A stretch of 64,000 nucleotides of DNA from Ceratodon purpureus (taxonomy: Eukaryota; Streptophyta; Bryopsida; Pseudoditrichales; Ditrichaceae): the NCBI GenBank assembly GCA_014871385.1, contig CM026426.1, positions 109,960,457 to 110,024,456 of the forward strand, in the 5' to 3' direction. The position numbers and the translations under genes were made by a program. The notes below the pieces were generated by a model that ran no database searches, was not told where the DNA came from, and saw only the letters and a list, made by a program, of their open reading frames with translations. This document shows positions 7,046-42,489 of the stretch, piece by piece; within the stretch, counting starts at the first letter, position 1, and each line of letters begins with the position of its first letter.

Positions 7046-7083
7046 TTTTTATTTTTTTTAAGAATATTTTTTAAAAACATATA

Positions 7084-11600: not shown

Positions 11601-12535
11601 CTTCTTATTCTTGATGGCACGGTTCCATTCTGTCAGACTGTTCCCAAAATCGCGTTCAGGGATGAGAGTTCTCAACTGGTCAAAGGGCATACTACCAAAC
11701 TGTATGACTCTTCGGAGCTCGTGAGTCCAATGTTGGTTCACATGATCGTATTCATACTTCCTGATATTGGATAATCTGATGATTAGTACTTCACATTAAC
11801 CAAAACTTTCCATAAAAGACAATCCTAGAAGTGAACTTACTTGTTCCACTATGTCATCGCATGCAGAATTTGTTGCTTGTTCTCCTCTGTGACACATATA
11901 ATATGTGTCTTCGGGCTTGGATGAAACGCTGGATTCGGATCTTAGGAATGAAAGTCTCTGATGACATTACTCCATGCCTTGTAGCGGTGATTACCATCCT
12001 AGATGTAAAACATCTTGTTTGAGTACTTCTCCAAACCAGGTGTTCTCTTAAACTTCTCCTCAAATGTCTTCTCTGCCTCCCTCCAAATCGGATCCCATAA
12101 GCCTCGCTGCTCTTCAGTGACCTCCTAAGTCTCCATTCTATAACTTCGGGTGGCCACACAGAAAACAGATGACCCACGTCTGTAGCCGTGAGCAAAATCA
12201 ACCTTCAGCTTCTCTATGTCAGGAGCTAATGCGCCGCGAACCTCTGTCATTGGAATCATACGCACAGAGGAATATCAAGCTCATAGACGGGTTTGTCAAG
12301 GCTTTCAGTTAATGCTTCTTGGCCTCTCCCCTTCCTTTTCTGCTGCAGTCTCTCCATGGTTACATGAATGCCAGGATCAACATCACCCTCTCCAATGCGT
12401 GGAGGTGCATCCATGTCCACGGGCTCGTAAGGTGTAATTTGTTCATACAGATTGGAGCACACAGTATGAGTATGTTTCCCGAATGTCTGCGCAAAAAACC
12501 AATGTCGCTTTCCTAAATCATCTAATTCTTTGAGC
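8613..12535 (-). pseudogene. ParB-like/amino-methyltransferase fusion, copy A
   Basis: Exons, read leftward: 12535-about 11839, 11775-11556, 11458-11258, 10937-10719, 10514-8904, 8815-8613, joined by GT-AG introns. Domains in order: an N-terminal linker; a ParB/Srx-like fold (DIPLC near 12260, then DGNHRYKAW near 11990-12015); an all-helical middle with ELRRVIQF and KNKKWYHLTADAFCNFLYE; a Lys-rich linker; then a beta-class amino-methyltransferase domain with VDLIVFDIPEN (motif IV position), a WANEWIADNRVVLVFYP strand block, PWRGPREK, and DLTASIG joined across an intron to ASIKAC (motif I, SAM site). The usual DPPY catalytic motif reads DIPE. Several in-frame stops indicate decay. It is probably nuclear. 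Domain order and intron places match the copy at 27-33 kb. Confidence 0.75.
10939..11257 (-). repeat. Intron with three consecutive hairpins, two GGATCC-centred
   Basis: Inside one intron of gene A lie three stem-loops in a row: about 11052-11096 (outer GGGGCCC arms, centre TCTCGGATCCGA), 11101-11134 (arms AAAGTGCTG and CAGCACTTT around an AT core) and 11149-11190 (arms CCTCCCAAAGG and CCTTTGGGAGG, centre CTCGGATCCGAG). The homologous intron of copy B carries the 149-bp GGATCC array. Confidence 0.8.
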
Positions 12536-15417: not shown

Positions 15418-15459
15418 ATGCATGACTCTACATCTCCAATCTTCTACCAGGCGCTTAGA

Positions 15460-18385
15460 ATGGCATCTATTCGTGCCCATGGCCATGTGGCCCCGTTTAC
15501 AGCGCCATTAGGTGAAGATGGATCAGTGAAGGTCTCGGAGCAGCTTTTGAGTCTTAGGTTTCATTTTCGAATGGGGTCCATGTACGTTGAGAAGGAGATT
15601 TTTGATGACAATGGAGTGTTGAGTGAGACTGTTCTTCAAGTGAAAACCAGAGAGGAAGAGGGTTTCGTTTGGACATTACATAGTGGTACATATAAAGTCT
15701 ATGGCCTCACGGATTCACAGATGTCAGAGTCTACTGTCATGCTGACTCCGCCCAGTTCTACTTCCACTGTTCGGGTTCCCGCTTTGGTGAAGGTCAAGAT
15801 AGAAGGCAGTGCTCCCGACGTCCACTGCCTCAGCGATACGGACGATGATGTGGTCCCTGATATCCGTCTTGGAGATACTTGTGCGAATCCATTCCAACGA
15901 CGGACCTCTTTGGGTTCCACTCGCTCGCTGCCGGGTAGGACTCAGCTACGTTCGCCATCAGTTTCCGCTGGCCGTCCCCCTGTTCATCCAACTTGACAGA
16001 AGCCGCGTAGCATCTTGGAGGCCATCAAGAAGACTGCAGGAATGAGGGGCTGCAGGTCAGATATATTGTCAATTGATTTTGCTAGCCTCGAGCATGTAGA
16101 AGTGAAGTACCTTCCCGCAACCTATGATGGTGACAAGATCTTCGAGTTGCCTCCTCTCCCTCAGAACATCCCGATGACATTCAGCGGAGAGTTGGATGGT
16201 ATGGGGAAGCAATACGACAGGCACGCGTGGTGTAAGACTATGACCACGAATGTTAAGAATGACTTTGGCCTAAAGTTTCGCAAGTCCAACTGTACGGGCC
16301 ATCTTCGGTGCCCGAACTTGAGCTGTGATTATATAGATAGGAATCCAGGGAAGGTGAATTCCACTGAGTGGGCTGGGCTTACCCCAAGTCAGATTTTAGT
16401 AGGAGAGAAGCATCCCTCTAACTCAACTCTTGTTTGCAAAATCTGCCATACTCCCCCTATCTGTTTAGAATTATGTACTGCGAGGATCTTCCATGTCACC
16501 AGCAAAGATCCAGACATGACTCAGGCCGCCATCTATCTCGGGCATCATAAACATCTAGTTTTGGATAGTACCTGCCTCGAGACCTTGGATCTCATGTACG
16601 AGTGCATAGGCGAGCAAGTCCTCTGTACTCCAAATGCAAAGAACTCTGCCATCGTCTTGGGAGCGAGGAAGATATTTCTGGCGGACTACCTCATTCAAGC
16701 GACTCCAGGGAAGAATCACCTTCGTGGTTCACCTATGGCTCAGGTGATGGACAAGTTTGAGACCATGTCGGATGCAAACATTTGGCACTTTGTTGCAGGA
16801 ACAAAGAAATTCTTACGCTAGGACAATGGTCTAGTCGATAACATCATGCGATTGAAGGAGTACAACGCCTTCAAATTCATCCACGAAAACCGCTTTCCAG
16901 GCCACACGAAAGGGAAGGTGTTCATCTTCAAAATGTCAGTGGATATGCCAGGCAGTGGTACAGACCTAGTGAAGCGCATGCAGCCCAGGAGAGACCTTCA
17001 AGATTCGTGGATCATGTTCGACCATGTCAGACAAGTGAAGGACTAGAGCACCATAGCATGTCATGTATATGATAGTAGATATTGCAGAGTCATGACCATA
17101 GCTCTATGTGATATGCTGTCCGAGGACGCCACTGCCCAGACCTTGTTCTAGGAAAACCTGAACAGTGTGATGGAGGACAATGGACATCCGAAGCCGAACT
17201 TCAAAGGATTCATGGGGGACAGTGCAAGCGCGAACTGGCATGCTATGCGGAAGGTGTACGACAACGGAAACGTGAATGACAAGATGGAAGGTCGAGAACG
17301 AACTTGTCTTTTTCACTGGACCAAGTGCCTTGAGCAGGTGACAATAGCCCACATCAGGCCGGACTATCAAGAGCAAATGAGATCCCTATGCAAGCAGTGG
17401 AAGGACACTAAGACCCAGGAGGAGGCGGAGGACATGTTCAACGTCATTCGAGGATGGTGGCAATCTGGAGGGTGTGTCACCTCGGACGCTGCATTACGAG
17501 CTCTCAACGATTGGATGGTCTTTTGGCACTACCGCTACAGGCAATGGGGTGGAGCAATGCAGTTCGTAAGTACCTAAATCTAAACCTTGGCCCCTATGTA
17601 AGTCCTGTATCAAATTCTTCCATGCATTGAACCAGTGGTCTTCTTCTGCAACATAATCTCTCGCTTGATGAACGAGCAGACATGCCTTCTTGCAACCTAG
17701 CAGAGACAATACACAACAAGTGGCTACAACAATCTTGTAACACTGGGAACTGCCTATACGACGCCACAGTGGACGATATGATGCGCGCCTTCATGCAAAT
17801 CACGCAGTACATGAAGTATCTGAAGGAGGGGCGATGAGGCAAAGGACCGAATAAAGAAGAGCTCCGTCTTCGTCAAGCACAACGAAGCTTGGACCCTGTC
17901 ATTATTGCTGAAGCAATGAAGGCCTATCCTGGAGCGGACGATGTGCTAACAAAAGAGAAAGGACTAGAGGGCGCCGAGATCTTTGGCTCATTATAGCGGA
18001 AGCTTGATCTCCTCCCGGGATCAGCTTACGACTCACACCGCTCAGATAAGGTGAATTATTCGATACCTGCCATGGGGACCAGGTCAAGAAGAGCAAGGAT
18101 TGACGAAGCCCTTTCGGATCCAACGTATGGTGTCCAACACATTACGTCTGTACAAGAAACATGTGGCACATTGCTCGCCTTTCGAATCGGTGAGCACGAA
18201 GATGTCAAGCCCTTCAAGCCCAGACGAGGAGAAATGCAATGCAAAGATTTTTAGGGGAGCAAAAGGCACACCTGCACCTAAGTATTCTGGGAGGAAGAAA
18301 GACTATCACACCAAACGTATTGTTCCTGTAGAGTTCTGGTTTTGCCCCGATGATATCAGCCGTTTGTTAACCGGAGATTCCTCAT
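15460..18385 (+). pseudogene. MULE-type transposase, unit A (C-terminus missing)
   Basis: Start chosen at MASIRAHGHVAP (15460), which lines up with MAQIRAEGHEVP of the unit B copy. In order: an N-terminal strand-rich region; a Cys/His cluster (CKICHTPPICLELC, then YLGHHKH) of the WRKY-GCM1/FLYWCH sort often found in MULEs; the RNase H-like core with IMFDHVRQVKD, CRVMTIALCDM, GFMGDSASANWHAM and TCLFHW (about 17010-17330); and an intron from the GTAAGT donor at 17569. The match to copy B ends at EFWFCPDDISRLL near 18370, so the SWIM zinc finger is lost. About half a dozen in-frame stops are present; two sit where copies B and C have Trp, as expected from G-to-A change. Mudr/MULE DNA transposon, inactive. 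Confidence 0.75.
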
Positions 18386-19631
18386 CTCCCCTCCCCTTTT
18401 ACCTTCCAATTATTTTCCCTTATAAACTCTCGCAGTTTTACCCCTGTAGTTTCAGAACAATCATCCAGTTACTTGGATGAACTCTGTCCAGCCGACTGGA
18501 TGAACTCTGTCCAGACTACTGGATGGACACTGCTAGGTTTAAAGGGCAGGATTAGGGTGAAAGCAGGCTACGCTAGTACGAAAATGGTGTCACAAACCAT
18601 ATTTTGAGAGGGATGTGGATTTCAATACGTTCCTGATTTTAATGTGGCATGTTCTTGACTGATTTGATTGAATAATATAATTGTTGGTATAACTAAGCGT
18701 CTATTTATATATTTTCTATTGATAAACTCGTTAGTGTGTGGACGTACTGAGTATATTAGTATACTACAGATTCCTGTCACTAAGGATATTGTTTGTGGAA
18801 ATATACTTAGTTCTGTAGGTTCCATGATTTTTTTTTCAATGTTTTTTTCCTGATATGTATAAATCATATAGCAGATGGATACTATGTTGAACAATTCGGA
18901 CAATTGAAATCCATTGAACAATTTATTTAGAAAATGTCCAAGTTTGTCCATGTCTGTAAAACATGGGGAAGAAAATGTTTTTTTTTTTTTTTTTTTTTTT
19001 TTTTGGCCCTTACAGAACACAACGAATACCATGTGGGCTTCCTGTATTCACGTACAAAAAAATAGTTTCAGTGTAGTTATGATACTTTGTCAAAAAACGG
19101 AAACTCGGAGTTCGTACATACCATATGTACTGCCGTAGTATCTTGATATACTCTGTCGAAGTCATTCGAGCAATGGTATCTGGACGCCTGGCATTCTGGA
19201 TCCAACTTTTCCGTAGCAACTCTCAATCATAGGACAGGCAAAAAGCTGCGACCCCTCCTAAATTGAGCAAACTTTTATGGGACTGTTAACGTATCTTTCT
19301 AATACATGGACTTGATTGAGGTTAGGGTTTCCAATGGGATCCAATTCTCTTTCAGCGTTACGGCGGTTCGGTGGTGGCTGAGTTATGTGGGTGCATGGGG
19401 TGACTATCTCAGATTCCCTGTTTCAGACTTCCTTCCATTTCGCTTTGGGGTTCTTCATGTGTTTTGCGTAGATCCGCTAGTGTTTGTAACTTCTGCAGCA
19501 ACTGTGGGCGACAACAGCTGTAGAATAACCAGGTACCACCGATTCTAGACACGTTTGAATGTGTTCTATTGAGCAAATTTGAAAATTCTTATGATTTTAT
19601 ACTGATATGTTTTCTACATGTTGCTTGCAAG
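18386..19631. other. Spacer between unit A and the DDE/SET element
   Basis: Contains a short direct repeat (GGATGAACTCTGTCCAG at 18476 and 18501), a T run at 18977-19004, and short frames without support. A possible upstream exon of the following gene ends at the acceptor-like TTGCAAG just before 19632. No terminal repeat was recognised. Confidence 0.4.
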
Positions 19632-26459: not shown

Positions 26460-27240
26460 ACTAGAGAGTATGTCAATGCACTATGTACTTTGATGTTACT
26501 TTGATGTACACTTCTAACTGTATAGAGTACATAGATAGACTTCTCAAATTCACAATGAATGGTATATAGACACCTAGGAACAATGTATTAAAAGAGCAAG
26601 AGTCTCAAAGATACTGTCGAAGTACTAGTAATTACAATAAGTAACTGTCCAAGTATAGACGACCAGTATGTTGAGAGACTCATGTGTACACTGAAGTGTA
26701 CTACAGATAACATGGTAGTGCATCAACATTCACCTAATGGTATAACTACATGGTACAACAATGTAATCAAAGTGTCAGAAACACTAATAGTGTACGTTCA
26801 TACACTCCAGCATACTACGTTATACCCCCCCAAATACTCACGCCATGTGTGTTGAGAGACTCAATATACCGTGAAGTATATTACTTAACCGATTTTCCAG
26901 TACTTCCTAGGACATATCTAGAGGCTTTACACAGTTTAGTGTACTATGACTGTCTTATATGACTCACAGGTAAAGTCGGATATTGACCGTCTGGAGTATG
27001 TGTATCTTTTAACCATACCAATGGTCCACACATGAAGTATAACATGACCTTCTGTATACTAAGTGAGAACAACCAATGACATGCCACCTACAACGAAGTA
27101 CGTGAATTGAACCGCAGAAGCAAGTAGACTTTCCTAAACGCTATTAGGTGATAGTAGGAATATATGTATTCAAATGCACATATTTTGCCGACATGACTCA
27201 CATGTCTTTATAAACCAGTCAAATAAGAAATAAAATACAT
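26460..27240. repeat. GTAC-rich region upstream of the SET gene
   Basis: Non-coding, AT-rich, with about ten GTAC sites scattered through 26480-27100, where two or three are expected. It lies between the 5' end of the SET gene and the 3' end of methyltransferase gene B, and probably contains the SET gene promoter and an element boundary. No terminal inverted repeat was recognised. Confidence 0.5.
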
Positions 27241-27262
27241 TCCATAAAGTCATTTCCCAAGC

Positions 27263-30200
27263 CTAGCACGACTGGTCAGAGATGCAAGTATGCTCTACTT
27301 CTGCCTCAATATCTAGGAACCTTTGAGCTCGTCCATCGAATAGTTTGGTCCTCGCTATTGGAGATGGTGGTGAGTCCAGTGTGCTCAACACCTGCGCTTG
27401 GTTCTCCGCGTAAACAGGAATTCGATGCATCACTGGCGACGGAATAATGTTCCGACTACACTCCATGAGTATGCCGGAATGGGGTTGCACATTCGGATTC
27501 TTGCGTATAGATTGCAATTAGTGACTTTCAGTCAACTTGAGCAATAGTGAGATGATGAGAGGATATGAAGGAATTAATCAGAGCATACTCACTTACTCAA
27601 GCGCGAGTTTCTTCAATCTCTTTCGGGCAATGTATGAGTTTGTGGAGATAGGAGGCTCCGCGTCCGCTGTGGTGGTCTCTTCGGTGGAGGTGTTCTCTGC
27701 TGTGGCAGGCTGTACTAATGCTTGATTAGATGGTGCTGGAGGATCCAACTTCATGAGTACCTCGTTGAAGATGTCTTTGTCTGCCTCTAATGCAACGATA
27801 TGGCGCCCAGTATCCCGGCAGGCTTTGATTGATGCTCCTACAATCCATATCCACTGTATAGTAAGTACCAGCAAGTACTTCTTCTTAAGCAAAGGAATTT
27901 GATAACAATTCGGCACTAAGACCTACCTGTGGCGGCGGTAACGTTGACGACCACGTCCCCTTCATCAGTCCTGGCGCGAATTATGCTCTCCATGAAGAGC
28001 TGATCCTTCTCCCTCGGACCGCGCCAGGGTACGCGATTCCTCATCGCCTGGTTTGCCATCGTTGTCCAATTCTGAATGACATCGTCCTCGGCAATGTCGA
28101 TTCCGTGCCTACAAAACTCTGGCGGTACCATCCGAAACTCGATATCCGAATGAGTAGAATGGGTAAGAAGGTGGACCCGAAAACAATTTGTCGTGGATCC
28201 GCTCTTCTTCGAAGAGCTGAGCCGCAGGCGATTGTATCCTAACCAGGACTTGTGAATCTTAAATGGGAACCATTTCAACCACTCCTCCATTTCCTTCTCT
28301 ACTGCTCCGGCGTCAGCGCTGTGAATTACAATTAGAGCGCCGTTGTCATGCAAAATATGTCCAGCGACGCCGAAAACTCCTGCAAGGAAATTACCGTCTT
28401 GATTGGTCCAATCTGGAATCTCATCTGTTCGCAGTGAAACACCTGGAACGCTCAACTTCTCCGGCACATCCACGATGACGAGATCGGCATATCCCCCACG
28501 AACAAGTTTGCCATTCTTGTATCTTGGCCGCTTATTCGTAATGCCCTTGATCCAGTCAAATACTGCATGGAAGCCCTCTGACATCCCCTTGAACGAAGTG
28601 ATCATTCCCTCCTCAGCCCATACCGCTACAGATTCGTTCTTGATCAGCTGCTGCGAGCTCTCTATATGCGCAGCTATGGCGACCACTGGCTTCTCGGCGT
28701 GCTCGATGCTTGGAGAGAGGCCAACCCTCTCGGGTGCTGTGGTCTCAGCCTTCTGATTCCCTGGCTTCTTCGCCGTCCTCTTCCTCTGCAATGGCTCCTT
28801 GTTCTCCGGTGGCTCCTTACTGGTCTCCTTTGACGTCGTCTTCGGCTGACCCTCTCTCTTTCGTTTGCGCGCGCTTGCATCTGCAGCCCCCGTCTCCGCG
28901 GACACAGCATGCGCATCCGAGTTGGGTAGACTGTCTAAATTTGGGGGGAGGATGTCGTCGACGAACTCATTCACCTCCTCTTCGCCATCCTTCTTCTTCG
29001 TGTGCTGTTCCTTGATTGCCTTCTCTTCCTCAGTGACCATAGTCTTTGGGCACTCTAGGTACGAGCATCCATCATTGAGGTGCTGCAAGTTGTATACCTT
29101 TCTTTGGTTCACTGTAAACATATACTCCGAGTTGTTGGTCTCCTTCCAGCTCTCCCAGGCTGCTGGGTACGCGTCTACCACTCCAGCTGGGATGAGCTCC
29201 CGCTTAAAGTACCTATAGACCAGCCTCTTCATAGCCATGTCAGTTCCAGCTTGCGACGCGAAGGGAAGAGATCTGGTGTAAGCATTGGCACCTGTAAAGA
29301 ATGCCCCGTACGCCTTCTCCCATAGGAGCACTCGCCACTTCTCCATGTAAGTCTCCATGGAGACTCATTTGGGCCTTACCTTGGAGCCGGATTCAGACGC
29401 CTCTTCTTCCTTTTCAATTGTTTCAAGCCAAGTTGAGCACTCAGCTTCCGCGGCCTCCTCAATCTGTAGATTTCATAAGCCCAAAGAAAGAGATTTAGAC
29501 AGAGATATTAGTAGAATCTCCCATATAAAACGAAGTGATGAAGGTGGACATTTACGAAGCTAAGCAGGAGATTCTTACATTAGCCCAAAAGGCAGCTCTC
29601 GAAAGCCAGGGGCCGAGCACATTCTCCGAGCACGGACTCGCAGGGAACTTTACCGTCTTCCGAGAACTTTCTGACCCGTTCCACATTCGCACCCATTTTG
29701 CCTTCGCTTTGAGTGTTGCTTCAGAAGTGGCAACCATAAGCAACTTGTCCAAACTCATCTCCACCTTTGTCGGATGTTTGTCGTAGTGGTTTTTAATCTG
29801 CAAATCAAGTCACCAAATATCAAAGTTACACGGCATGCGTCCAGAAAAATCCGACATCCCCTCAACATTTGAAAACCGAAAAAACCGCTGTCGGATCCTA
29901 CATTGCATTTTGAAGATCAAACTTTTTGAAGACCCCTCGCAAAAATCTCAATAGTTTGGCACCGATTATTAAAGTTACAGAACATGCATCCGGAGAAAAA
30001 CGACATCCCCTCAACATTTGAAAACCGAAAAAACTGCTGTCGGATCCTACATTGCATTTTGAAGATCAAACTTTTTGAAGACCCCTTGCAATAATCTCAA
30101 TAGTTTGGCATCGATTATTAAAGTTACAGAACATGCATCCGGAGAAAAACGACATCCCCTCAACATTTGAAAACCGAAAAAACCGCTGTCGGATCCTACA

Positions 30201-33200
30201 TTGCATTTTGAAGATCAAACTTTTTGAAGACCCCTCGCAATAATCTCAATAGTTTGGCATCGATTATTAAAGTTACAGAACATGCATCCGGAGAAAAACG
30301 ACATCCCCTCAACATTTGAAAACCGAAAAAACTGCTGTCGGATCCTACATTGCATTTTGAAGATCAAACTTTTTGAAGACCCCTCGCAATAATCTCAATA
30401 GTTTGGCATCGATTATTAAAGTTACAGAACATGCATCCGGAGAAAAACGACATCCCCTCAACATTTGAAAACCGAAAAAACCGCTGTCGGATCCTACATT
30501 GCATTTTGAAGATCAAACTTTTTGAAGACCCCTTGCAATAATCTCAATAGTTTGGCATCGATTATTAAAGTTACAGAACATGCATCCGGAGAAAAACGAC
30601 ATCCCCTCAACATTTGAAAACCGAAAAAACTGCTGTCGGATCCTACAGAGCATTTTGAAGATCAAACTTTTTGAAGACCCCTTGCAATAATCTCAATAGT
30701 TTGGCATCGATTATTAAAGTTACAGAACATGCATCCGGAGAAAAACGACATCCCCTCAACATTTGAAAACCGAAAAAACTGCTGTCGGATCCTACAGAGC
30801 ATTTTGAAGATCAAACTTTTTGAAGACCCCTTGCAATAATCTCAATAGTTTGGCATCGATTATTAAAGTTACAGAACATGCATCCGGAGAAAAACGACAT
30901 CCCCTCAACATTTGAAAACCGAAAAAACTGCTATCGGATCCTACAGAGCATTTTGAAGATCAAACTTTTTGAAGACCCCTGGTCTTTTAGTTATCCGAAA
31001 ACCATTGTCGGATCCTATAATACGATTCGTGGTAGTTCAAATATCACAGGACTTGCACTATTTTCACGAATTCTAGCATATAGAGTTAGTTTTAAACGCC
31101 GGTATCATGAATTTAAGCTCATTTGTCCAATAATTGGGTGATATTGGACATTGAACCATACAATTTAACACGGAACCGCGAAAATTACTTGAACCAAATT
31201 ACGACTGTCGGATCCGACAATGCATTTCTGACCTCTTGGATTTACGAGACCCCTGCCCAAATTTAAAAAAATAGCTATCTGAACATCAGAGAATTTCGAG
31301 AATAAAATCTCCTGGACCAACAGTACCGCGAAATTACTTGAACCAAATTACGACTGTCGGATCCGACAATGCATTTCTGACCTCTCGGATTTATGAGACC
31401 CTTGCCCAAATTTAAAAAAATAGCTCTCCGAACAGCAGAGAATTTCGAGAATGAAATTTGAGTGACACGCAGTACCGCGATATTACTTGAACAAAATTAC
31501 GAAAATCGGATCCAACAATGCTCTTTTGATCTCTAAGTTTTACGTGACCCTTGCCCAAATTTACAAAAAAAGCTTACAGAACAGTAGAGAATTTCGAGAA
31601 TAAAATTTGAGGGACACAAAGTACCGCAACATTACTGATTAAAAATTATCATTGTCGGATCCGACAATGCTCTTTTGACCTCTCTGTCTTACGAGACTTT
31701 TTCCCAAAATTGTAAAAATACCTCATTGTACAACAATGATTTTTCACAATAATATTTAAGGAACACACATTACCACGATATTACTTGAACAGTATTACGA
31801 ATATCGGATCCGACAATGCTCTTTTGACTTCTCAGTTCTAGGAGGCCCATGCCCAAATTCGGAGACATACCTCAGCATGAAACGCCTTTCCATGCGCCGG
31901 GTTCGCCACCGACTGCTCCTTCTAGAACTTGCTTTGCAACTTATCCTTCGCTTCTTTGACTGCTTTCTCCACAGCATTCTTCATCTCAGCCCCGGTGTCT
32001 TCGTCTGGGTGCTCTGTTATCCAGAGCTGCACTGCCTTCTCAACGACTCGGGCCAGTGTCCCCTGAGTAAATTGACATGTCAATATTTGTTTCTGTACCT
32101 CAATGAACCAATCATCATCTTCGGAATTCAGAAATTCTGAGTTACTTACCGCGTGAAGAAAGGACACAAAGACTTCGTGCGGCATGGTATGCCACGACCT
32201 CTTGGGAGCCGCCTTTGTTCGAGCCATGAGATCTGGGGGCAAAATACCACTCTTTTCCAAATCCTCAGCGGACATGCCTCCATAGGTTTGAATCTTGTGC
32301 AGTGTGTGAGGCAGTCTCTCTTTGATGAACGCTTCCTCGTTGGCCCTGCATAGGCAGAGATGTTAGTTCCATTATGACAATTAAGGAAGTTAAAACCCTG
32401 GACTGCATAAAAATGGAACAAGCTGAAAATCGGAAGTCTTACTTGTTGATCGCGTGCATAGCTGTCACTAGCGCTTCGCGACTGTCCTTCACCTCCAACA
32501 GTATGCAATCCGGTCTTCCATTTGCATATGCCCAGTCGTAGTCATCTGGGTACTCCATTTCGATAAACCCGCGCCACGCCCTTGTCCGATGATTACCATC
32601 AAAGACGTAGAACATCTTCCCACTAAGATCACGAGTTTCCTCGTGTTTTGATAGCTCCGCCTCGAACATGCTGTTCAAGATATGCCACACTGAACACCAG
32701 GAAGACTTCATCTCTTCGGTCACAAGTGTCTCCTCGCCCATATGCGACGTTGCCGCAACGTAGAATGCCCCTGAGCCGGGCCTTATCCCATTGGAGAACT
32801 CGGTCTGCAATTTCTGAACGTCACTGAGCTGCTGAGCATCGCGGGTCGAACGAAATCACACGGCAGCAAACGACATAGAGGAATCTTTATCAATGACAAC
32901 TTGTCTGGTTTACGCCTCATTCTTAAAAGTGCCGAATAGGGATCCAGCTGCATTTCCGATCGAATCTGCCTTCGTGCTTCGTTAACCCCAACTCGCCCCG
33001 CAGGTTGCAACAGGACCGCAGCTGCACCCTCCCGCGTTCCAACTTCGATCGACATGCTGATCAGAGCTTCAGCACCCTCGCCTGTTGCTGCCTCGGCCTC
33101 ACATTCGCCTGATGCAACAACCGCGTCGGCATCGATCTTGTCGTCGGTTCCTTTGGGCTCTTCCTCCCCGGTCGGATTCAAGCCCTCACGTGGGTTGTCC

Positions 33201-33403
33201 GATTCCGCGTGATCGTCTCCATCCACAAAGTCCTCCATGAAGACGTCGGAGCCAACTTGACCACCAACCGCGACGATCAGCGGTTGTGAGCTGTCCATAT
33301 ACTCGTCCCGAATCGATCCCTTCTGTATGTCTTCCAACACGGCGTTGAAAGTGGCCGCGTTCTCGTCAACCACATCAGCAAGGTTCGTGATCGTTCCGTG
33401 CAT
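27263..33403 (-). CDS. ParB-like/amino-methyltransferase fusion, copy B (nearly whole)
   Basis: Exons leftward: 33403-32443, 32345-32150, 32062-31871, 29797-29579, 29463-27927, 27837-about 27599, and a likely last one ending at 27263. Domains: an acidic N-terminus of about 130 residues; a ParB/Srx-like fold (LIKIPLCRL, GAFYVAATSH, YVFDGNHRTRAWRG, DCILLEVKDSREAL); a helical middle; a basic linker (ARKRKREG, RKRTAKK: nuclear signals); then a beta-class amino-methyltransferase domain with ADLVIVDVPEKL (motif IV), HILHDNGALIVIHS, PWRGPREKDQLFMESI and VNVTAATG spliced to ASIKACRDTGRHIVALEADK (motif I, SAM binding). Bacterial and phage DNA methylases often pair ParB with this fold. The catalytic DPPY reads DVPE, so activity is uncertain. 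One frame change and about two in-frame stops by my reading. Intron positions match copy A. Confidence 0.78.
29815..30985. repeat. 149-bp tandem array, eight units, intronic
   Basis: Eight near-identical units inside an intron of gene B. CGGATCC falls at 29892, 30041, 30190, 30339, 30488, 30637, 30786 and 30935, exactly 149 bases apart each time. Each unit holds GCTGTCGGATCCTACA, a CATTTTGAAGATCAAAC block and a GTTTGGCATCGATTATT block. Units differ by only a few bases. Confidence 0.95.
31180..31870. repeat. Older 149-bp array, five diverged units
   Basis: The same intron continues with a diverged set. CGGATCC falls at 31209, 31358, 31507, 31656 and 31805, again exactly 149 apart although the units differ clearly in sequence. 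Each contains TGTCGGATCCGACAATGC or a variant, a GAGACCCTTGCCCAAATT-type block and a GAGAATTTCGAGAAT block. It is recognisably the same family as the left array. One extra GGATCC at 31009 lies between the arrays. Confidence 0.93.
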
Positions 33404-34306
33404 GGAGACGCGGGTACATCATAAGACGCCGATAAATAACATGCAAAGAACCCTAAAAACATCCTCTCTCGAAACAACATGCCAAAAACCCTAAATGATG
33501 TTCAACCCTAACTCATCTATTTCTCCCTATATCCGCGACGCTACCATTTCGGTTACCTCCATTACTTGTGCATGCGACTTGAAGACTTCTCGAAAAGCTG
33601 CTCAACGGAGCTTTGACACCTTGAAACCAACAAAAACAATGCAGCAGTCGATCACCAATTCCCTCCAACAAGCGTTGCACACTCTGTCCTCCGTGAGCAC
33701 TATCCTAATCTTCCATAACCTCACATGCTATAAAGCTAACAACAATTTAAATCTCAGGCTTGACAGAACCCACGAACAATGGAGACATGTTTCTCTTATC
33801 ACACTCGAAGGTTCTCCTCCCTCTTCCTTCTCACCCAAACCCCGTGTCTGTGGATAGCTCACGAGCGCCCCCTCGACCTTTATGCTCCGAAACAGCCAGC
33901 CAGCAATAGCTTCATAAGCACACCTCAGCGATCCGGCGGCTCTCATCCCCAAACCTAGCCGCGGCTCTATTGTCCTTGCCACCAACCCTCACTGATGGCT
34001 TCAACCAAAATAGAGGCTGCCGCGTACTAAAACCCACCAAACAATGATGACTTTACTCGAACCCATAATTCTTTAAAACCTTAAACATCACATCACCACA
34101 AGCCGCGTTTCGCGCTTACCATTACATGATCATGGGTACTTTCGAAGGGTCTCAGTCACATCACTGTAGGCCGCCGCTAACGAGTACCACTAAGCTATCA
34201 TGAAAAGAAGCTGTCCATACAATCCTGTAAATACAAAGACTCCCAGTACCTCCAATCCTCAATCTCAACTATGCCAAGAACCACTTCAAAAGAACGTACC
34301 AAGAAG
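33404..34306. other. Region between methyltransferase B and basic ORF
   Basis: No gene is supported. Short frames on both strands (33495-33857, 33728-33985) overlap each other and have no family features. If the ORF at 34307-34666 is a 5' exon of the methyltransferase gene, this is its first intron. Confidence 0.35.
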
Positions 34307-34666
34307 TCATGCAAGGAAGCTTACATCTGAATGAGGTCTCTCATTCACCAAATCGGCGCCAAGGTCATGCACCACCCCGGTCGAATCGTCAATCGCCACA
34401 TGTCCTTCCGAGCGATGGCTGCTGCTTACTTCGGTGCCAGATTCCCGTGTGTTCGAGCTCGGACATCCCCCTACATCACATCGAGGGTCCCCAAGAATTG
34501 CTGTAACGGATCGGGTTCCCTTACTGACCTTACTATTACTTTGCTTACTATTGCTGCGCTTCCTATCCGTCAAAATCAACCCCTTCTTCTTCGTCGTCCT
34601 CTTCCCTTTCGCAGGTGTAGCCTGCTTGGGTGAGCTCAACTCCCCCATGCAGCGTGACTTAGGCAT
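34307..34666 (-). CDS. Basic Lys/Ser-rich small ORF, unit B
   Basis: A 119-residue frame starting MPKSRCMGELSSPKQATPAK with KRTTKKKGL and KRSNSKQSNSK, then a Ser-rich half. It sits where unit A has its Lys-rich minus-strand frame (14084), directly opposite the MULE gene across a short divergent gap. The residue make-up is alike but the sequences are not clearly alignable. It may be a 5' exon of the methyltransferase gene or a separate small nuclear protein. No family recognised. Confidence 0.4.
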   Translation of the reverse strand: MPKSRCMGELSSPKQATPAKGKRTTKKKGLILTDRKRSNSKQSNSKVSKGTRSVTAILGDPRCDVGGCPSSNTRESGTEVSSSHRSEGHVAIDDSTGVVHDLGADLVNERPHSDVSFLA

Positions 34667-35090
34667 TGTTGACGGTGAGACCTGTCAACCCTGTCGACGG
34701 CTCCGCTCATTCTGGTCCGAGCCCAAAGGTATGGAACGAGAGAAGTGAGGACATTACTCCACTCGGATAGATGAATGAGATGAGTGAATGCCAATTACTG
34801 GATGTGGTAAAATTGCACTATGTGCAAACATCACGACCTGCATTTATGACATACTCTTTGACGGCTCCTAGTAAAAAGCGCTGCATAATTAAATATCACA
34901 AATCCCTCTAATTTTTAAAATAGTCCTCCTTCTTAAGTCCCTAACCGATTTTGTTCAACCGTAATTTGGTAATGATGCGGTCGGAATCCCGCTGATTGTA
35001 GTTCCTTCAACACCACGCTCTAAGCGCAGTCTGTATATGGGACTCACCATTCGTCGCGTCTCCATAGTTTAATCCTGATTTCTCGCGACC
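34667..35090. promoter_or_regulatory. Divergent intergenic region of unit B
   Basis: About 420 bases between the minus-strand basic ORF and the plus-strand transposase start, equivalent in place to 14085-14344 in unit A. It should hold promoters in both directions. I can name no specific element. Confidence 0.4.
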
Positions 35091-38000
35091 ATGGCGCAAA
35101 TTCGAGCTGAGGGGCACGAAGTTCCTCTCCATGTACCTTGTAATGCCGAGGGAGTCGGATCCGTTAGCGCTGGTCTTCTAAGCGTCAGATACAACCTTGT
35201 GCTGGAGAGCATCCATCTAGAGGAGGAAGTTGTCGATGACGGCGGGAATTTGGTTCACACGGTTTATCAGATGCCTAGTAGGACTACTGAAGGGAGAGAG
35301 TGGCTTCTAGAGGCCAGAAAGTATGTTGCTAGAGGACTAACTCCAGACCGATGGGCAGCATCGACTGAGATACTTACACCCGGGCGCTCAATGACTTCAA
35401 CTGTGGATGTAGGTCCTGGTACTGAGGCCGCCAAGTTAGATCCAGTGGTAGAAGAGATCCATGTGCTCAGGGAATCGGACGATTTGTTTAGAACTCCGCA
35501 AGAGCACCCCATACCGACGCAGAAGTCATCCTTAGGCAGCCCGAGTGTCGTCTCTTGTCTCAAACGCCTAGCTTCACGATCCGGCGCCAAGAATGCGTTG
35601 TCCAGGCTGAACTTCAGTACGCTGAGGACAGAGCGGGTACCCTTTCTTCCGGGCAAATTCAATGGCGAGGTGCTTTTTGAGCTTCCTCCCGCGCCCCCCG
35701 CGACTCCATCGACGGCAAAATCAATGGCAGGAATGGACAAGAAGTACGACGGACATCCGTGGTGTAAGACGATGACGTCCAATATTTCCAACGACTCTGG
35801 GCTTACGTTTCGATACTCCGTTTGTGCAGGGCATCTGAGATGGTGCAATGACAATTGCGACTTTCGCAATTGAGGGGAGAACCGTCTGAGCGAGGTCAAC
35901 GAGGCTGAGTGGGATGGAGTGTCGCGGACCCCCTTCCAGGTGAGTTGTGATCCCCCTGCGAAATCTACGCTCGTGTGTAAGATATGCAAGACTCCTCCGC
36001 AATGCCTCGCCCAATGCCCTGCTAGAATATACTACGTCCTAAGGGGGGCTGACATGACCCGTGCGTGCATCCATATCGGCACGCACGACCATCCCGTAGG
36101 ATTCGCTGACTGCAGGTTAAGCAAACAGAGGATCCTCAACCTCGTCGAGTCGCATGTCGGTCAGAATCCTGAGGGCAAAACCTCTTCTATTGCATTGGAA
36201 GCTAGCAAGGACTTCTTGAGTGACCTCCTCCTTGCCCAACCCGGCGAAGTGCGTAAATATCTTTCGGATGATGAGCTCGATCAGGCGTTTAGGCTCTATT
36301 ATCCTCTTAGCAGGCCAGGTCTGAAGAACGACGTCACGACCTTCAGATCCGTCGGCAACAAGGGAGTAATGGACGGGATAGCCGCGCTGCGAGGTTGCAG
36401 CAAATGGGAGTTTATACACGAGAACAAATTTCCCGGACAGGGGGCGGAGGGCGAGAAGGTCTTCGTCTTCAAGATGTCGGAGAGGGGCCACGGGTCAGGG
36501 GTGGATCTCGTGAAGCGGATGCAGCCTGGCGAAGACTTGGAAGATGCGTGTATCATGTTTGATCACGTCAGGCAAACAAAGGATTGGTCAACAATGGCAT
36601 GTCATGTGAATGACTCCCAATACTGTCGTGTTATGACAGTTGCCATATGCGATGTGCAGTCGGAGGACGCTCGGGCGCAGAGTTTGCTCTGGCGGGGTCT
36701 GAACGGGGTAATGGCAAAGCACAAGGTGAATAATGTCAATTTCAAAGGCTTCATGGCGGACAACGCACAGGCCAATTGGAACGCTGTTCGAGTAATCTAT
36801 GGAAACGGAAACGCGGACGATCCAATGCCCGACCGTGAGCGTACCTGCCAATTCCACTGGGCAAGTTCATTGAAGAAGTATACGGAGGCTCACATTTGAG
36901 GTCACGATCTCCAAAGGCAACATTACGCTTTGTGCAGGCAGTATCGAGATGCAAAGACATGGGAGGATGCCGACATTCGTTACCATGCCATCCGTTCTTG
37001 GTGGATTTCATCCGCGGCCTCGACACCTGCTGGACTCGAACATCTGGAGCAGTGGCTCGTCTTTTGGCACTTTCGGTACCGGTAGTGGGGCGGTTACATG
37101 CAATTAGTGAGTCTTCTTCCGCTAAACTTGTCATTCTATTCGAATCCCTTGCTGCCACTGAACGTAGAGCTTGCTAAATTCATGGAATTCTCTTTGAATG
37201 CAGAACCTCACAGACGAGGAGAAGGACGAGATGCCGTCGTGCAACCTCTCAGAGACTGTCCATAATATCTGGCTTCAGATGTCAAGCAACCGTGAGATAA
37301 GCCTGTACACGGCCACAGTCGACGACTATGTCCGGGGCTTCATGCAGTGCACGAACTATAGCGCCTACCTCAGAGGAGAAAACCCAGGTAAAGGACGAAG
37401 CAAAGCCGAGCTCCGTTTACGGCGGGCTCAGAAGTCGGGCATTCCCAAACGTCTTGCTGATGCCTCGGAACACTTCCACGACGCTCCACAGATGCTCTCC
37501 CGTCAGCCCCACAGAGAAGGCGAAGAGGTCTTTGGCTCAACGAAGCGGAAGCTGGATCAACCAATTGGATCCGAATACAATTCTCACAGACCCGACAAAG
37601 TAAACTTCTCACAACCACGGGTGGCCACTAGGAAGACGCGTGCTCGGGTCGAAGCTGAACCAGTACCTGTGGACGAAGCCTCTTCGCCCGTCTGAAGCCG
37701 CGACGAGAATACGACTCGTCCACACGTAACTGCAGTAGAGGAGACGGACGTGGACGACAGTAAGTGGCATCTTATCAGGCTGCCGAAGGGCTGTGCAAAG
37801 GCATGTTTCGCACAGCAGGCAAAGACAAACAAGAAGTGCAAGGCCAGGCTCGTACGCGGAGGGAAGACCATAGTTGTGCCAAGCTACTGGGGCACCTTTA
37901 CAAAAGTCAGAAATGGATGCAGTTCTGCTTCTGTAACGACGACATTCAGAGATGCGTCATGGGCACGAAACGGAATTGGGTCTCAAGCATGGCGCCCCCT

Positions 38001-38618
38001 CCGCTTATCTGGCCCGTGAAGCGTGGAACTCGCCTGACAAAGCGAGAGATTTTGGACCTAGAGGCTGCTGGTTTTAGACTACCTCAACGTCAGGACCTAC
38101 CCTCTCAACGAGTTTTCCATGACGGCGACGGCAGCATTCCACAGCGGCCACGGTTTGAACTCTCGCACTTGGTTGTACCCGATGCTCCTGGAGTTTATCC
38201 TACAGTGTGTGGAGGTTTCAAGATTCGTCGCTGCAACCGGATTCCTAGAACCGAGCACGAGAACAATTGGGCGTCGTCGCTTCTACTCACGGTTCATATC
38301 CAATCCGTGACAATGATACCAACACGTGGGTTTGGTTGCATAATCAGCCTTGTCTCCGAGACTGTTTCCGAGTCAAACTTGTACAAGATCACAGTTGGCC
38401 CCGAGCCCGAATGCACCTGCCCCAACTTCAAGGAGATGTCCGTGAAGTCCCTTGGAAAACGTCCTCCCTGGGTCCCTTGCAAGCATCTTTACTACATCTA
38501 CAACGCAATATGCAACCTTGAAATGCATCGGGACTCTTACATCTATGCTCCAACTCTCAGCTTTAACGAAGTGAAGACGATCCTCGAGAGCGGCCTTCTT
38601 GAGCTAGTAACATTCTAA
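35091..38618 (+). pseudogene. MULE-type transposase with SWIM finger, unit B
   Basis: The fullest of three copies. From MAQIRAEGHEVPL: an N-terminal region (to about residue 210); a Cys/His region with CAGHLRWCNDNCDF, CKICKTPPQCLAQC and HIGTHDHP (WRKY-GCM1/FLYWCH-like, about 245-335); the RNase H-like core with IMFDHVRQTKDW, CRVMTVAICDVQSED, GFMADNAQANWNAV and TCQFHW (about 485-590), the MULE D..D..C.H layout; an intron near 37107-37202; and a C-terminal SWIM zinc finger with CTCPNF and CKHLYYI (38410-38500). About three or four in-frame stops and one frame change make it inactive as it stands. Some stops are one C-to-T step from the residue in the other copies. It should cut and join the element's ends; the partner gene across the divergent promoter is the ParB-methyltransferase. 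Confidence 0.8.
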
Positions 38619-38639
38619 GGATCGTTGTTGCCACTTCAA

Positions 38640-39000
38640 CCTCCCAGCCCAACTCCCGTGGATGCGAATCATGAACCGGCTTCGCTCCAACTTTAGGGTC
38701 GCCTACCTTGACGACTTCGTTATACTATCTACGTTCTAGAATAAGGGAGAAGGCACTACTCATTTTCCGCAAATCTCAGATGCGCGACCGTAGATGCATG
38801 CATCCATGAATGACATTCATTACAGCTTCTTAAATACATCTATATTCCGTGTGAAATATGCCTTCTCACTCATATTGCACTTACGCAATTGTCTCGGTTT
38901 ACATGGCTGCCTGGACAGTCAGACAATCATCACTCATCTAGCGAAATATCATTCATCTAGGTACGTCCCACTCTGAATGGGCTGTCTCAATCATGGAACC
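38640..39000. other. Spacer after transposase B
   Basis: No gene seen. It should hold the 3' untranslated region of the MULE gene. A short run TCATTCATCTAG-type repeats near 38935-38960. Confidence 0.4.
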
Positions 39001-41510
39001 GGCAGCCGCGATAGATAACCCCACTGTACATTAATAATGGGCCGGGTGTGAGCCAGCCGGGGTGCCACTCCAACCCGGCTGTCAGGTTTCATTGCCACTC
39101 CGGCTCTTACGGCTAGGCCGCAGTACCCCGCTTTCGACCTCCTCCCGAAAGTGATTGTCGGATCCGACAGTGGGTTTTGGCCACTCAGCAATGTCGCGGG
39201 TGGCGCCAGGCGACCCTCGTCGGATAGTTTTCTGACGGACCCCTCCTTTGGTTATTGCCACTCATGAGAGATGAGATATTTCTCGTCCACCAATATCCAT
39301 CTTCCAGTGGTTAAAAAATATAATTGTTGAGCGCACAGAGCCGTTTAGATGATGGTACGATGCAGGTGGCCGGTTACTCCGCATTTATTATCGAATATAA
39401 CCGTAGCCACGGCATTGATCTCATGTTCACCCTAAACAAATTCTCAGTCATGTAGCATCTTCCCACGTTCAATGGGTTCTCTAATTCATCGAACTAGCAC
39501 CCATGTTACTTCAAGCGCGCTCCACAGTAAGAGGGGTTTAAGTGCTAGCAGGCTCGGGGGCTACTTTTACCAGGCCCCCGAGTTTCTATAGGACTCGAGC
39601 TCCTACCGTCAGGAGGCAGTACCCCAATGTCGACCTCCTTCCGAAAGCAATTGTCGGATCCGACAGTGGGTTTTTGCCCGTAACGAATGTCGTGGGTGGC
39701 CTCGGTCGGCCCTCGTTGCATAGGTATGTGATGGACAGCGAGTTGGGATTTTGCCACTGACGACAGTAGTAAATAGTAATGATTGTTGAGAACAGTAGGC
39801 GGTCTTGATGACTTAACTCTGCAGGTATCCGATAACACTATAATAACCGCAGCCAAAGCATTGATCTGATGCCTCAAACCTAGGTGCAGGTCTTTAGCCC
39901 TAAACAGGAATCTAGGACTTTAACGCCTAGAAGTTGTTTTATTGGTAATTCCATGGTAATCGACAGTGAAGCAATCTCTTGGAGGTTACTGAGATGTGCG
40001 CCATCATAATGACCTCGGTTTCATAAATTTCAGTTTACTCACCTTAATACAGCCATAACACTGCCGTATACCTGGGACGATGATTCACCGCACCTTTTCA
40101 CCCTAAACCATTACAGCAGTATCGTAATTGCCGGCGGCTCACTCATGCTGCCTGTGGACTGATCTCTATATATGAGGTTATTGCAGAACGCTGGGTCATT
40201 TCCACCTGATGCCAATGGACCTCGCAATGAATCCGATTTGTTTTAGCCTAGGCCGTAGATCGCGACTTATGTTAGACACCAGCTCCATGATGGATCGGTA
40301 GATCGGGGATATAGTGTTTCGCAAGCCCTCCGCACAGGCCAAGATTGAGTTTTCACTATATCAGTCCGCTGAGGATTGGTCTCAGAATTTTAAGACGTGG
40401 CTTTTGAAGGTGTTTACCTGCAGTGTGCTCTATGATGATCAATTTTTTCATTCCACTGACGCTCCAAAGAAGATGAGGTGCATCATGCTTTTTGTCTGGG
40501 TACCTGGCCAAGGTTTTCAGGAAGCACCTTCTGGAGGAATCATGACACCTCATATTCCTCTGAGTGAGTCCACAACCTTCCATCGACTGAGTCAGGTGGG
40601 GTTCTTCCCGGACGGCAACAGCGTCACGTTGTGTTTTGCGCTGCCCTCCCCACCCGACCCAGTCCCGTTTCTCAGAGTCGATTTCTGGCGGGACACGTAC
40701 CGCCAGGAAGCGTATTCGGGGCTGCAAGTTCTTAATGTTGTTGACAACCCTTCGACGCAGTGCCCTACTCTGCGCATGATTTCTCTATGGAAACGAAATG
40801 GCGAAAGATGGATTTGTGATAGTTCTGTGATAGGTCCAAGTCTGCAGTTTGTATCGGAGGTGGCGAAGGAAGTTCCCGTTTGACATCTATTGTTGCATCA
40901 TTCCAGTATTGTCCTTCGTAGTACATGGCCCGCTAGGTTGCTGAGGGACAGCCGTATGCAGAGAGACATCAAATTTTCACCTACGTATATGAGTATATGA
41001 GAAGGAAGTAGACAGCGTGAACTGATCGCACATTCGCAAGAGGCCTTTGCGAGAATCATTGTATTGTTCTCATTTTGATCCTTTAATACATATATAATCA
41101 CTTTGAAATCAGCACCACTCCTTACATATGAGGTTTGCAAATTGCACTGTATGTATTATAACGCTTCTATCAATCAACCGAAACCTTCCTCATCAATCCC
41201 CATGACCATTCCGCACTTTAGGCGAGCGTGCATGATGAATTCCTCGTCCCTGATGCGAACCGACACCCATGCGGGCAGTACTCAAACTATTATCTGGCTA
41301 GGTATCATCTGGACCGGATATTGTGGTAACCCGGCTGTCGGAATTCCATGCCACTGCAGCTCTGTTCCCATGTCCGTAGTACCCCTGATGGACAAATCCC
41401 AGAATGTTGCTGTCGGATCCTACAATGGGTTTAGGCCAGTCATCCATGTCGTGGTTACCCCCCGACCACCTCCTCCAGTTTCCTTCCGAAAGTTCCAACG
41501 GTGGCTTATG
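39000..41510. repeat. Roughly 500-bp repeat, three diverged copies, GGATCC-bearing
   Basis: Copies at about 39000-39490, 39500-39900 and 41290-41510 share a GCAGTACCCC block, a CTCC(C/T)TCCGAAAG block, TGTCGGATCC(G/T)ACA, then GTGGGTTT or a close variant and an AATGTCG(C/T)GGGTGGC block. GGATCC falls in CGGATCC at 39159, 39655 and 41414. The first two are spaced 496 bases. The third is separated by the region with the ORF at 40314. These may be subterminal repeats of unit B. Confidence 0.75.
40314..40883 (+). CDS. Hypothetical protein, 189 residues
   Basis: A single open frame starting MFRKPSAQAKIEFSL with balanced residue content (IMLFVWVPGQGFQ, RVDFWRDTYRQEAY), which looks like a folded protein rather than chance sequence. 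I recognise no family or motif. It lies between repeat copies to the right of MULE B and in the same direction, so it may be a second plus-strand gene of the unit. No counterpart is visible right of unit A, where the element is cut short. Confidence 0.45.
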   Translation: MFRKPSAQAKIEFSLYQSAEDWSQNFKTWLLKVFTCSVLYDDQFFHSTDAPKKMRCIMLFVWVPGQGFQEAPSGGIMTPHIPLSESTTFHRLSQVGFFPDGNSVTLCFALPSPPDPVPFLRVDFWRDTYRQEAYSGLQVLNVVDNPSTQCPTLRMISLWKRNGERWICDSSVIGPSLQFVSEVAKEVPV

Positions 41511-41737
41511 ATATGAGGGGATATAATGGAGGGCATTTTTGTTAACGCCTTAATCATCCCTTTATTGCTCGTCGACACAGTTGTTACAAATCGTCGCACT
41601 CTGGCCATTTGGGAATCTAACAAGACAATGCCAAGATGTCATCACTCCTTGCAACCTATTCTTGCGATAACTTGAAGCTTTCGAAGTCTATTACCAGGCC
41701 TCACCGCAGCAGTCATTTACATACGCTACCCTATGCA

Positions 41738-42208
41738 CTACTGCTCAACTTTGTCGTTCTCTGTGTACTCTTCCAAGAAATCTAGCCTCTCCCAGCCCTC
41801 GTGGTCTTGAAGGTTGATTCCAATCTCAGTCTCCGTCGACGCAGGCACACTGGGTCGCACATAAGGCTTACGCAGCAGTGACTCGTACATCTTTCCGTCC
41901 CCAACCGCACCTCCGTATGGATTCGACACATTCCAAACTTTCTTTGGTTGGCTTGGAGTGAAGCTCTTCGGTTTCCACGACGGACTTGAAATCTTTGGAA
42001 GTACTCCAGAAGTGCGAAGCTCGCAGTATGATCCAACTCTTGAAGGAACCACCGAATCATCATGCATGTTTTCAGCTCTATCCACAGTAGGACCTACACA
42101 TGTACTCACCACCAAATAGTCACCCAAGTTTGAGAGGATGTCAATGACCTCACATTCCTCCACGTTGGGAACCCAAACATCAGTTTCCTTCTCTAACCTC
42201 TCCATCAA
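41738..42208 (-). CDS. Hypothetical acidic protein, 156 residues
   Basis: An open frame starting MMERLEKETDVWVPNVEE and ending in an acidic tail. It has a Ser/Pro/Lys middle (SSPSWKPKSFTPSQPKK). No known family. It sits between the unit B flank and the left edge of the gag-protease element, and could be a remnant of unit C cut off from the rest by that insertion. I could not align it with the accessory ORFs at 14345 or 52592. Confidence 0.4.
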   Translation of the reverse strand: MMERLEKETDVWVPNVEECEVIDILSNLGDYLVVSTCVGPTVDRAENMHDDSVVPSRVGSYCELRTSGVLPKISSPSWKPKSFTPSQPKKVWNVSNPYGGAVGDGKMYESLLRKPYVRPSVPASTETEIGINLQDHEGWERLDFLEEYTENDKVEQ

Positions 42209-42257
42209 GTGCCACTTTGGATCTCAAGACTGAAGTGATTTCAACCAATTTCTAGTT

Positions 42258-42395
42258 CAATTTTGGCACGTGTCAGATCGGATATTAAAATCCACGAACA
42301 TGTTCAAGAGGGGTACCCTCCTAATTTTGGCACGTGTCGGATCGGATATTCAAATCCACGGATTCGTTCAGGAGGGGTACCCTGCTAATTTTCTC
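42258..42395. repeat. Tandem duplication, about 65 bp, two copies
   Basis: The phrase TTTTGGCACGTGTC(A/G)GATCGG with the following AATCCACG and GGGGTACCCT blocks occurs twice back to back, at about 42265 and 42330. Confidence 0.8.
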
Positions 42396-42489
42396 GCTCC
42401 CCGGTGCCGCGGAAATAGGTCCTCTTTCACGAAATTTTGGTGGCCGGCGGTGAAATTTTTCTGCTCACCGCTCACCAGCTCACCGCTCA

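Follow-up and report, generated by a model that had tools for sequence, protein, structure and literature searches.

Why should a moss carry a gene that looks like a ParB-like protein joined to a bacterial-type DNA methyltransferase? The question is raised by a 64,000-nucleotide stretch of Ceratodon purpureus DNA (GenBank assembly GCA_014871385.1, contig CM026426.1, positions 109,960,457 to 110,024,456; hereafter the window), situated close to the end of a 110.5-Mb contig in a genome of 362 Mb. On its minus strand, from 33403 to 27263, we found a seven-exon gene with a product of about 1190 amino acids (aa). Sequence comparison indicates that this gene belongs, as an accessory gene, to multicopy giant DNA transposons. 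Present in the window are one copy of the family that we call A, truncated and inactivated, and the remains of other copies.

A multicopy gene within giant DNA transposons

Searching the genome with the 482-aa exon of the gene gave 88 scored matches (of 3919 candidates), most of them without an internal stop. Family A accounts for 29 (67-100% identity, including the window) and a second family, B, for 59 (48-52%). A query from the second window copy (9049-9555) returned 150 scored matches (of 1303 candidates) and added families C, D, and E. The 88 matches, mostly stop-free, and the recognition of the protein by Pfam and PDB profiles (see below) exclude a chance pattern.

The ends of the elements, placed by comparing copies on several chromosomes, give a length of 25.2 kb for family A and 28.1 kb for family B. 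They carry terminal inverted repeats (TIRs) of approximately 55-90 bp, the first ~12 bases of which are unlike between the two ends. Six copies were fetched, and all four in which both ends were seen are flanked by exact 10-bp target-site duplications (TSDs), read by eye as ATTGTGGCAC, AGCTTCAAAC, TCTAAGCGCC, and ATTGCTGGAC. The family-B copy on contig C5 adjoins a family-C transposase gene, and the family-C copy of the window holds the matching empty site. TIRs, a TSD of fixed length, and an empty site, by which DNA transposons are recognised, were all found. Copies on different chromosomes are 94-99% identical, and the finding of open frames in near-identical copies from several chromosomes suggests that the elements were recently active.

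Elements A and B have in common the ParB-methyltransferase gene and, head to head with it, a two-exon transposase-like gene (~1150 aa); seven more open reading frames (ORFs) are also conserved between them. For at least 94 of the 150 methyltransferase exon matches, a divergent transposase match lies upstream at a distance of up to 20 kb (median 7.9 kb). Any other arrangement of the two genes was seen 0-1 times, and 200 random shuffles, in which the lengths of contigs C1, C3, and C12 were approximate, gave a mean of 0.6 and a maximum of 3. Of the 150 ParB exon matches, 116 are followed on the same strand by a methyltransferase exon no more than 15 kb away. The corresponding features of the window are as follows.

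27138..42512, minus strand: truncated family-A copy, 96-97% identical to the 25.2-kb element on contig C4; its left TIR begins at 42512 (CGGGAATTCTGG...)
8613..12262, minus strand: second, older ParB-methyltransferase gene (family C) with several stops, located by tblastn with A and B proteins
15450..15466, no strand: empty site at the insertion point of the family-B element on contig C5, TSD TCTAAGCGCC, from element-end comparison

The family-A copy stops at 27138, and the right ~10 kb of the full element is gone.

Stops also occur, in the exon searched, in all nine other family-A matches on the 110-Mb contig of the window (C6); of the full-length matches on other contigs, 13 of 15 are stop-free. 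Family-A copies are apparently decaying on this contig, which may be a sex chromosome.

Structure and decay of the window copy

The reading frames of the window gene were worked out against intact copies. Its protein runs from a ParB-like domain with a DGNHR box, through a helical middle, to a permuted N6/N4 amino-methyltransferase domain in which motif IV precedes motif I.

27263..33403, minus strand: ParB-like/N6_N4 methyltransferase gene in seven exons, a pseudogene here, from exon alignment to intact copies
33403-32443, 32345-32150, 32062-31871, 29797-29579, 29463-27927, 27837-27597, and 27500-27263, minus strand: the exons, approximate, from exon alignment
32442..32920, minus strand: ParB-like domain, with DGNHRTRAW at 32600-32574 and a weak phrog_1033 match in relatives
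27597..28700, minus strand: methyltransferase domain, from the aligned subfamilies' matches to PF01555 and to PDB profiles
31922..31924, minus strand: in-frame TAG in exon 3, where the intact copy on contig C4 reads through
29365..29367, minus strand: in-frame TGA in exon 5, where the intact copy on contig C4 reads through

The spliced minus-strand product proposed at this place in an initial annotation, made from the letters of the window, is present, and the seven exons and their GT-AG junctions are conserved across the aligned copies A_C2, A_C8, B_C13, and B_C7. Motif I, which the annotation had described as rebuilt across an intron, is indeed so: NVTAATG (27945-27927) is finished by ASIKAC in exon 6. 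The motif IV region reads DVPE (28470-28456), and motif I begins with N in place of D. The window copy is nevertheless a pseudogene, because exon 1 has an 8-nt frameshifting insertion at about 32838-32828, exons 3 and 5 contain the TAG and TGA, and the exon 7 acceptor is altered (CGCAG followed by C has become CGCAA followed by G); a continuous product is found in relatives only. The suggestion that the gene was spliced and used in a eukaryote holds as far as a eukaryotic, spliced gene is concerned, but use of the window copy, a pseudogene, is not supported. The start codon of family A is uncertain, since family-A copies read GTG at the position of the window's ATG; ATG stands there in B and in the second-species contig L036.

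A second species and purifying selection

In a scan of bacterial and archaeal genomes, the gene turned up on two contigs (L036 and L037) of a 'Synechococcales' metagenome bin (AVDCRST_MAG81), its introns in corresponding positions. The ATG of L036 is at 552. A bacterial origin was rejected because the introns sit where the moss gene has them, and the two contigs are most likely contamination of the cyanobacterial bin by plant, probably moss, DNA. L036 and L037 are 90.7% identical, and their exon 5 has a ratio of nonsynonymous to synonymous substitution rates (dN/dS) of 0.098 with a dS of 0.31 over 548 codons; its protein sequence is thus under purifying selection. The transposase exons of A and B have a dN/dS of about 0.09.

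The methyltransferase and ParB-like domains

All five aligned subfamily domains matched N6_N4_Mtase (PF01555) at E<=1 in a Pfam profile search. Member B scored 34.3 bits against a cut-off of 26.7, and subfamily F, joined by eye, scored 37.3 bits. The best PDB profile matches of the five-subfamily alignment were DpnA (1e-7), CcrM (8.5e-5), and MboIIA (0.017), and phage DNA methyltransferase families were matched as well. The alignment to CcrM covers columns 66-293, from the motif IV region through motif I, in agreement with the permuted order IV ... I of the initial annotation. Single pieces from the window and from L036, without the last exon, gave no significant profile match; with the subfamilies and the last exon included, Pfam and PDB profiles do recognise the domain. 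IMG/VR, searched with the methyltransferase and ParB alignments, returned 43 and 296 pattern stretches, respectively, none of which was confirmed as a relative, and phage records gave only distant matches to the methyltransferase domain of B.

The catalytic motif IV of amino-methyltransferases is (D/N/S)-x-P-(Y/F/W). Motif IV was found in 20 of 21 loci scanned, several of which are the same copy, and reads D-[IV]-P-E in 18 and D-Q-P-[YF] in the remaining two. The D-[IV]-P-E form, in which the D and the second P are retained and the aromatic residue is lost, occurs in the A-E copies read and in L036/L037. The catalytic pattern is not found in these; it is matched by subfamily F only, as DQPY in L038 and DQPF in L039. 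Two B copies have DIGAGTG as motif I and a third has DISAGTG, while the remaining intact copies follow the pattern D-[VLI]-x-[AT]-[AS]-T-G; the first glycine of the motif is restricted to the B copies L014 and L030. Invariant in the five aligned subfamilies are the D and third-position P of motif IV, the T-G of motif I, and a downstream E and D. L038 and L039, which were among the PF01555 hits, form a sister subfamily with a near-canonical motif IV, to which the 28 other hits may or may not belong.

In the other half of the protein, the DGNHR box and further residues are invariant in all five aligned proteins. The family phrog_1033 ('ParB-like partition protein') weakly matched three of the five (best E 0.0088; for L036, E 0.25). 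A ParB-like profile gave just weak matches to unrelated proteins in the PDB, and the ParB exon of L036 had no tblastn match at E<=1 in 50,697 phage records.

A palindrome repeated in the elements

Five subfamilies and the second species have a 10-bp core palindrome, TCGGATCCGA, in common. It occurs 11 times in element A, 6 times in B, 4 times in L033, 10 times in L034, 8 times in L035, and 3 times in L036, where 0.001-0.031 would be expected in each (0.03 in element A), and it is the commonest 10-bp palindrome in every one of them. None was found in 33 kb of sequence flanking A copies. Nor did any occur in the 36 kb of the window that lie beyond its two copies and include a degraded third transposase copy. 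All 11 sites of element A fall outside coding exons and ORFs. The palindrome is often found in intron 3 of the ParB-methyltransferase gene. In family A, the 149-bp tandem units of that intron bear TGTCGGATCCGACA or near copies; the repeat units of L033, L034, and L035 (families C, D, and E) are different ones and contain TCTCGGATCCGAGA or TTTCGGATCCGAGA. Ahead of the start codon of L036, TCTCGGATCCGAGA occurs three times. Further sites of element A are located at 2.8-3.3 kb and 16.7-23.6 kb, both non-coding. In intron 3 of element B (10186-13011 of that element), half-sites are seen, CTGTCGGATT in the intron's first half and AATCCGACAG in its second, as half-palindromes of opposite orientation. 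The sites of the window are listed here.

29811..31870, minus strand: intron 3, tandem units of ~149 bp with sites like TGTCGGATCC(G/T)ACA; 14 sites with at most 3 mismatches, starts from 29889 to 31802
39156..39169, no strand: palindrome TGTCGGATCCGACA outside the gene, from the site scan
39652..39665, no strand: palindrome TGTCGGATCCGACA outside the gene, from the site scan
10649..11176, no strand: three TCGGATCCGA palindromes in the family-C copy, from the site scan

Genome-wide, the 14-bp form TSTCGGATCCGASA has 1772 occurrences and its reversed control none. Forms with mixed, non-symmetric halves number 21, which leaves 1751 fully symmetric sites, each of one version or the other. The outer bases are TG..CA in A and B, and TC..GA in C, E, and the second species. 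On contig C1, 34 of the 50 sites listed (of the 1772) have a known element gene no more than 30 kb away (16 known gene places; random mean 2.2), as do 11 of 18 site clusters (random 0.86).

Proposed mode of action and alternatives

On balance, we think it probable that the protein is an accessory product of the transposons whose ParB-like and helical part binds the palindromes, and whose S-adenosylmethionine (SAM)-binding domain acts on the transposon that encodes it. The palindromes would serve as a parS-like centre, bound as ParB binds parS, and the protein would thus gather on its own element. The SAM-binding domain would then methylate the transposon DNA or, where motif IV is D-[IV]-P-E, sense or bind it; methylation versus SAM binding only may differ between subfamily F and the other subfamilies. 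The purpose could be self-marking, control of transposition, or protection or escape from silencing. A more elaborate scheme, which we advance tentatively and with some doubt, is a self-recognising epigenetic system. The ParB-like part would load on the intronic parS-like palindromes and spread along the element, and the fused domain would mark each copy (with N6-methyladenine or N4-methylcytosine) or otherwise tag it, while versions of protein and site co-diverge, so that families could distinguish their own copies.

Several observations weigh against palindrome binding followed by action on the transposon. The ParB/Srx-like domain named in the initial annotation was borne out in part: the invariant DGNHR box and the weak phrog_1033 matches favour it, yet Pfam, NCBIfam, and PDB profile searches gave no ParB match, whereas the N6_N4_Mtase family was matched by all five subfamilies. 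The ParB assignment, which rests on a short motif and weak matches, is the weaker one, and phrog_2331, a phage transposase family, matched one member (E 0.025) and the family-C protein (E 0.043) about as weakly as phrog_1033 did. In the other half, the aromatic residue of motif IV is absent from A-E and L036/L037, contrary to ordinary amino-methyltransferase chemistry there, and in the match to DpnA the motif I half alone scores (30.9 versus 1.1 bits). Between A and B, dS is saturated over most of the methyltransferase gene. Regarding the palindrome, TCGGATCCGA is absent from L037, L038, and L039, which are short partial sequences. In element B, CAAGGTACCTTG (5) outnumbers GTCGGATCCGAC (4) at 12 bp, and intron 3 holds half-sites only. 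The outer bases of family D, TTT..GA, are non-symmetric and fall outside the count of 1751, and site counts in general include amplified copies and hence are not independent events. Seven of the 18 clusters on C1 are more than 30 kb from any known element gene; none of these seven has a listed ParB or methyltransferase match within 30 kb, and three have one within 60 kb. The binder of the palindrome could be the transposase or a host protein.

There is nearly an even chance that the protein is a catalytically silent relative of the methyltransferases, that is, a SAM-dependent DNA-binding or regulatory factor (e.g., in anti-silencing or transposase control), with subfamily F alone still methylating. 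The contrast between D-[IV]-P-E in most copies and DQPY/DQPF in L038/L039 points that way, as do conservation under selection (dN/dS 0.098 in exon 5 of L036/L037) and the confinement of the first glycine of motif I to L014 and L030. On the other hand, the invariant residues of motif IV, of motif I, and downstream would be expected if both SAM and a substrate were bound. We regard it as unlikely that the palindrome serves the transposase or a host factor, or is no more than repeat-prone sequence, and that the ParB-methyltransferase gene rides along as cargo. The sites of element A do reach beyond the gene into the two non-coding regions. However, the repeat units of A, C, D, and E differ and yet keep the same core, the gene shows purifying selection wherever it was measured and is linked to the transposase in at least 94 of 150 matches, and transposase binding sites are expected at inverted repeats, not in an intron.

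A domesticated host methyltransferase gene that happens to be situated among repeats is highly improbable. The gene is long, spliced, and under purifying selection where measured, as a host gene might be, but its 88 and 150 scored matches, the TIRs and TSDs of the elements that enclose all four copies seen at both ends, and the divergent transposase-like gene within 20 kb of at least 94 matches all speak against it. For the full elements seen, the multicopy state, TIRs, TSDs, and transposase linkage refute a host gene, and the initial annotation has to be amended in that the gene belongs to a multicopy transposon.

In land plants, transposons are thought to be silenced mainly via 5-methylcytosine. 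A plant transposon with a bacterial-type amino-methyltransferase domain and dense candidate sites would offer a testable case of self-marking. ParB-like proteins are known mainly from bacterial chromosome and plasmid partition; if the protein does gather on the palindromes of its own transposon, their range would come to include a mobile element of a eukaryote, one that bears candidate parS-like sites.

The transposase-like gene and other features

Besides the ParB-methyltransferase genes, the following features were located in the window.

35079..38615, plus strand: divergent transposase-like gene of two exons, with stops in the window copy, from tblastn of intact A proteins (93-97% identity)
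15460..18435, plus strand: divergent transposase-like gene of the family-C copy, from tblastn
40176..40880, plus strand: conserved ORF g2, 235 aa, from tblastn and element comparison
41756..42217, minus strand: conserved ORF g1, 155 aa, from tblastn and element comparison

D...D and C-x2-H motifs, as well as a SWIM-like CxC...CxH near the C-terminus, were seen by eye in the transposase-like protein. The B_C5 copy reads MANS where B_C13, B_C7, and the A copies read MADS, the D of which is a candidate catalytic residue. The degraded third transposase-like copy (49212-51834, plus strand) is of the same broad family, with 37-50% identity to family A. The 10-bp TSD falls in the Mutator-like range (8-11 bp). 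Pfam searches gave no match of the transposase-like protein to PF10551 (Mutator-like element transposase), the nearest pair among 65 of 93 genome-wide PF10551 hits and 23 of 141 transposase places was 169 kb apart, hhalign with two host Mutator-like proteins gave no support, and a profile search against the PDB gave just weak matches to unrelated proteins. The TSD length would fit the Mutator-like class, but the profile tests give no support for it.

ORF g2 (1559-2236 in element B) is ~94% identical between A and B, the transposase and g228 being 70-82% identical; this excess could reflect either recent exchange between elements or a different constraint. Two of the seven further ORFs have a dN/dS near 0.5 and may not be genes. 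The conserved ORF at 15250-16167 of element A (C4 copy) and 19692-20741 of element B has, by eye, a signal-peptide-like start in B, and plant self-incompatibility protein S1 is matched below threshold (18.1 bits; the cut-off is 24). Elsewhere in the window, ORFs at 56078-56905 and 44808-45359 (both minus strand) resemble, by eye, retrotransposon Gag with zinc knuckles, and 6061-7161 is low-complexity, strongly purine-skewed, and open in several frames.

Comparison with known systems

Sola1 transposons have a TSD of 4 bp. The giant DNA transposon Sola1-1_Ec32 of Ectocarpus (21.5 kb) encodes, opposite in strand to its transposase, a 1104-aa protein with ParB-like and N4/N6 DNA methyltransferase parts; its authors suggest that this protein binds and marks its own transposon, and proteins like it are known from transposons of green and red algae (PMC12477816). 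In architecture and orientation the moss gene would fit this algal type, although its ParB half is weakly matched. Likened by description, the moss elements differ in their 10-bp TSDs, at least six subfamilies, a motif IV that is mostly D-[IV]-P-E, and repeated palindromic sites, of which the available part of that account makes no mention.

The same pair of domains is frequently fused in phages, according to a survey of ParB-CTPase fusions with N6_N4 methyltransferases whose text contains no word beginning with 'plant' (PMC12704722); there the proteins are those of phages and prophages. DpnA, CcrM, and MboIIA share the permuted order, with motif IV ahead of motif I, but are bacterial and have a DPPY-type motif IV, unlike the D-[IV]-P-E or D-Q-P-[YF] of the moss proteins. 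DNA methyltransferases have also been acquired by eukaryotic elements and genomes in the case of the C5-cytosine enzymes of retrotransposons (PMC5890265) and the bacterial-type N4 methylation of rotifers, a host N4-cytosine mark (PMC8885841); the accounts available to us describe no ParB-like part in either. Mutator-like elements have TSDs of 8-11 bp, TIRs, and accessory ORFs that are often antisense (PMC6446971). The moss elements share the TSD length, the TIRs, the antisense ORFs, and possibly a SWIM-like CxC...CxH after the transposase core, but their transposase has neither PF10551 nor hhalign support.

We found no report of such elements in mosses in the open-licence literature searched. 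ParB-methyltransferase transposon genes have already been reported from algae, and the architecture is not new. What appears new is a probable radiation of these elements in mosses, their repeated palindromic sites, and the presence of D-[IV]-P-E in place of D-P-P-Y.

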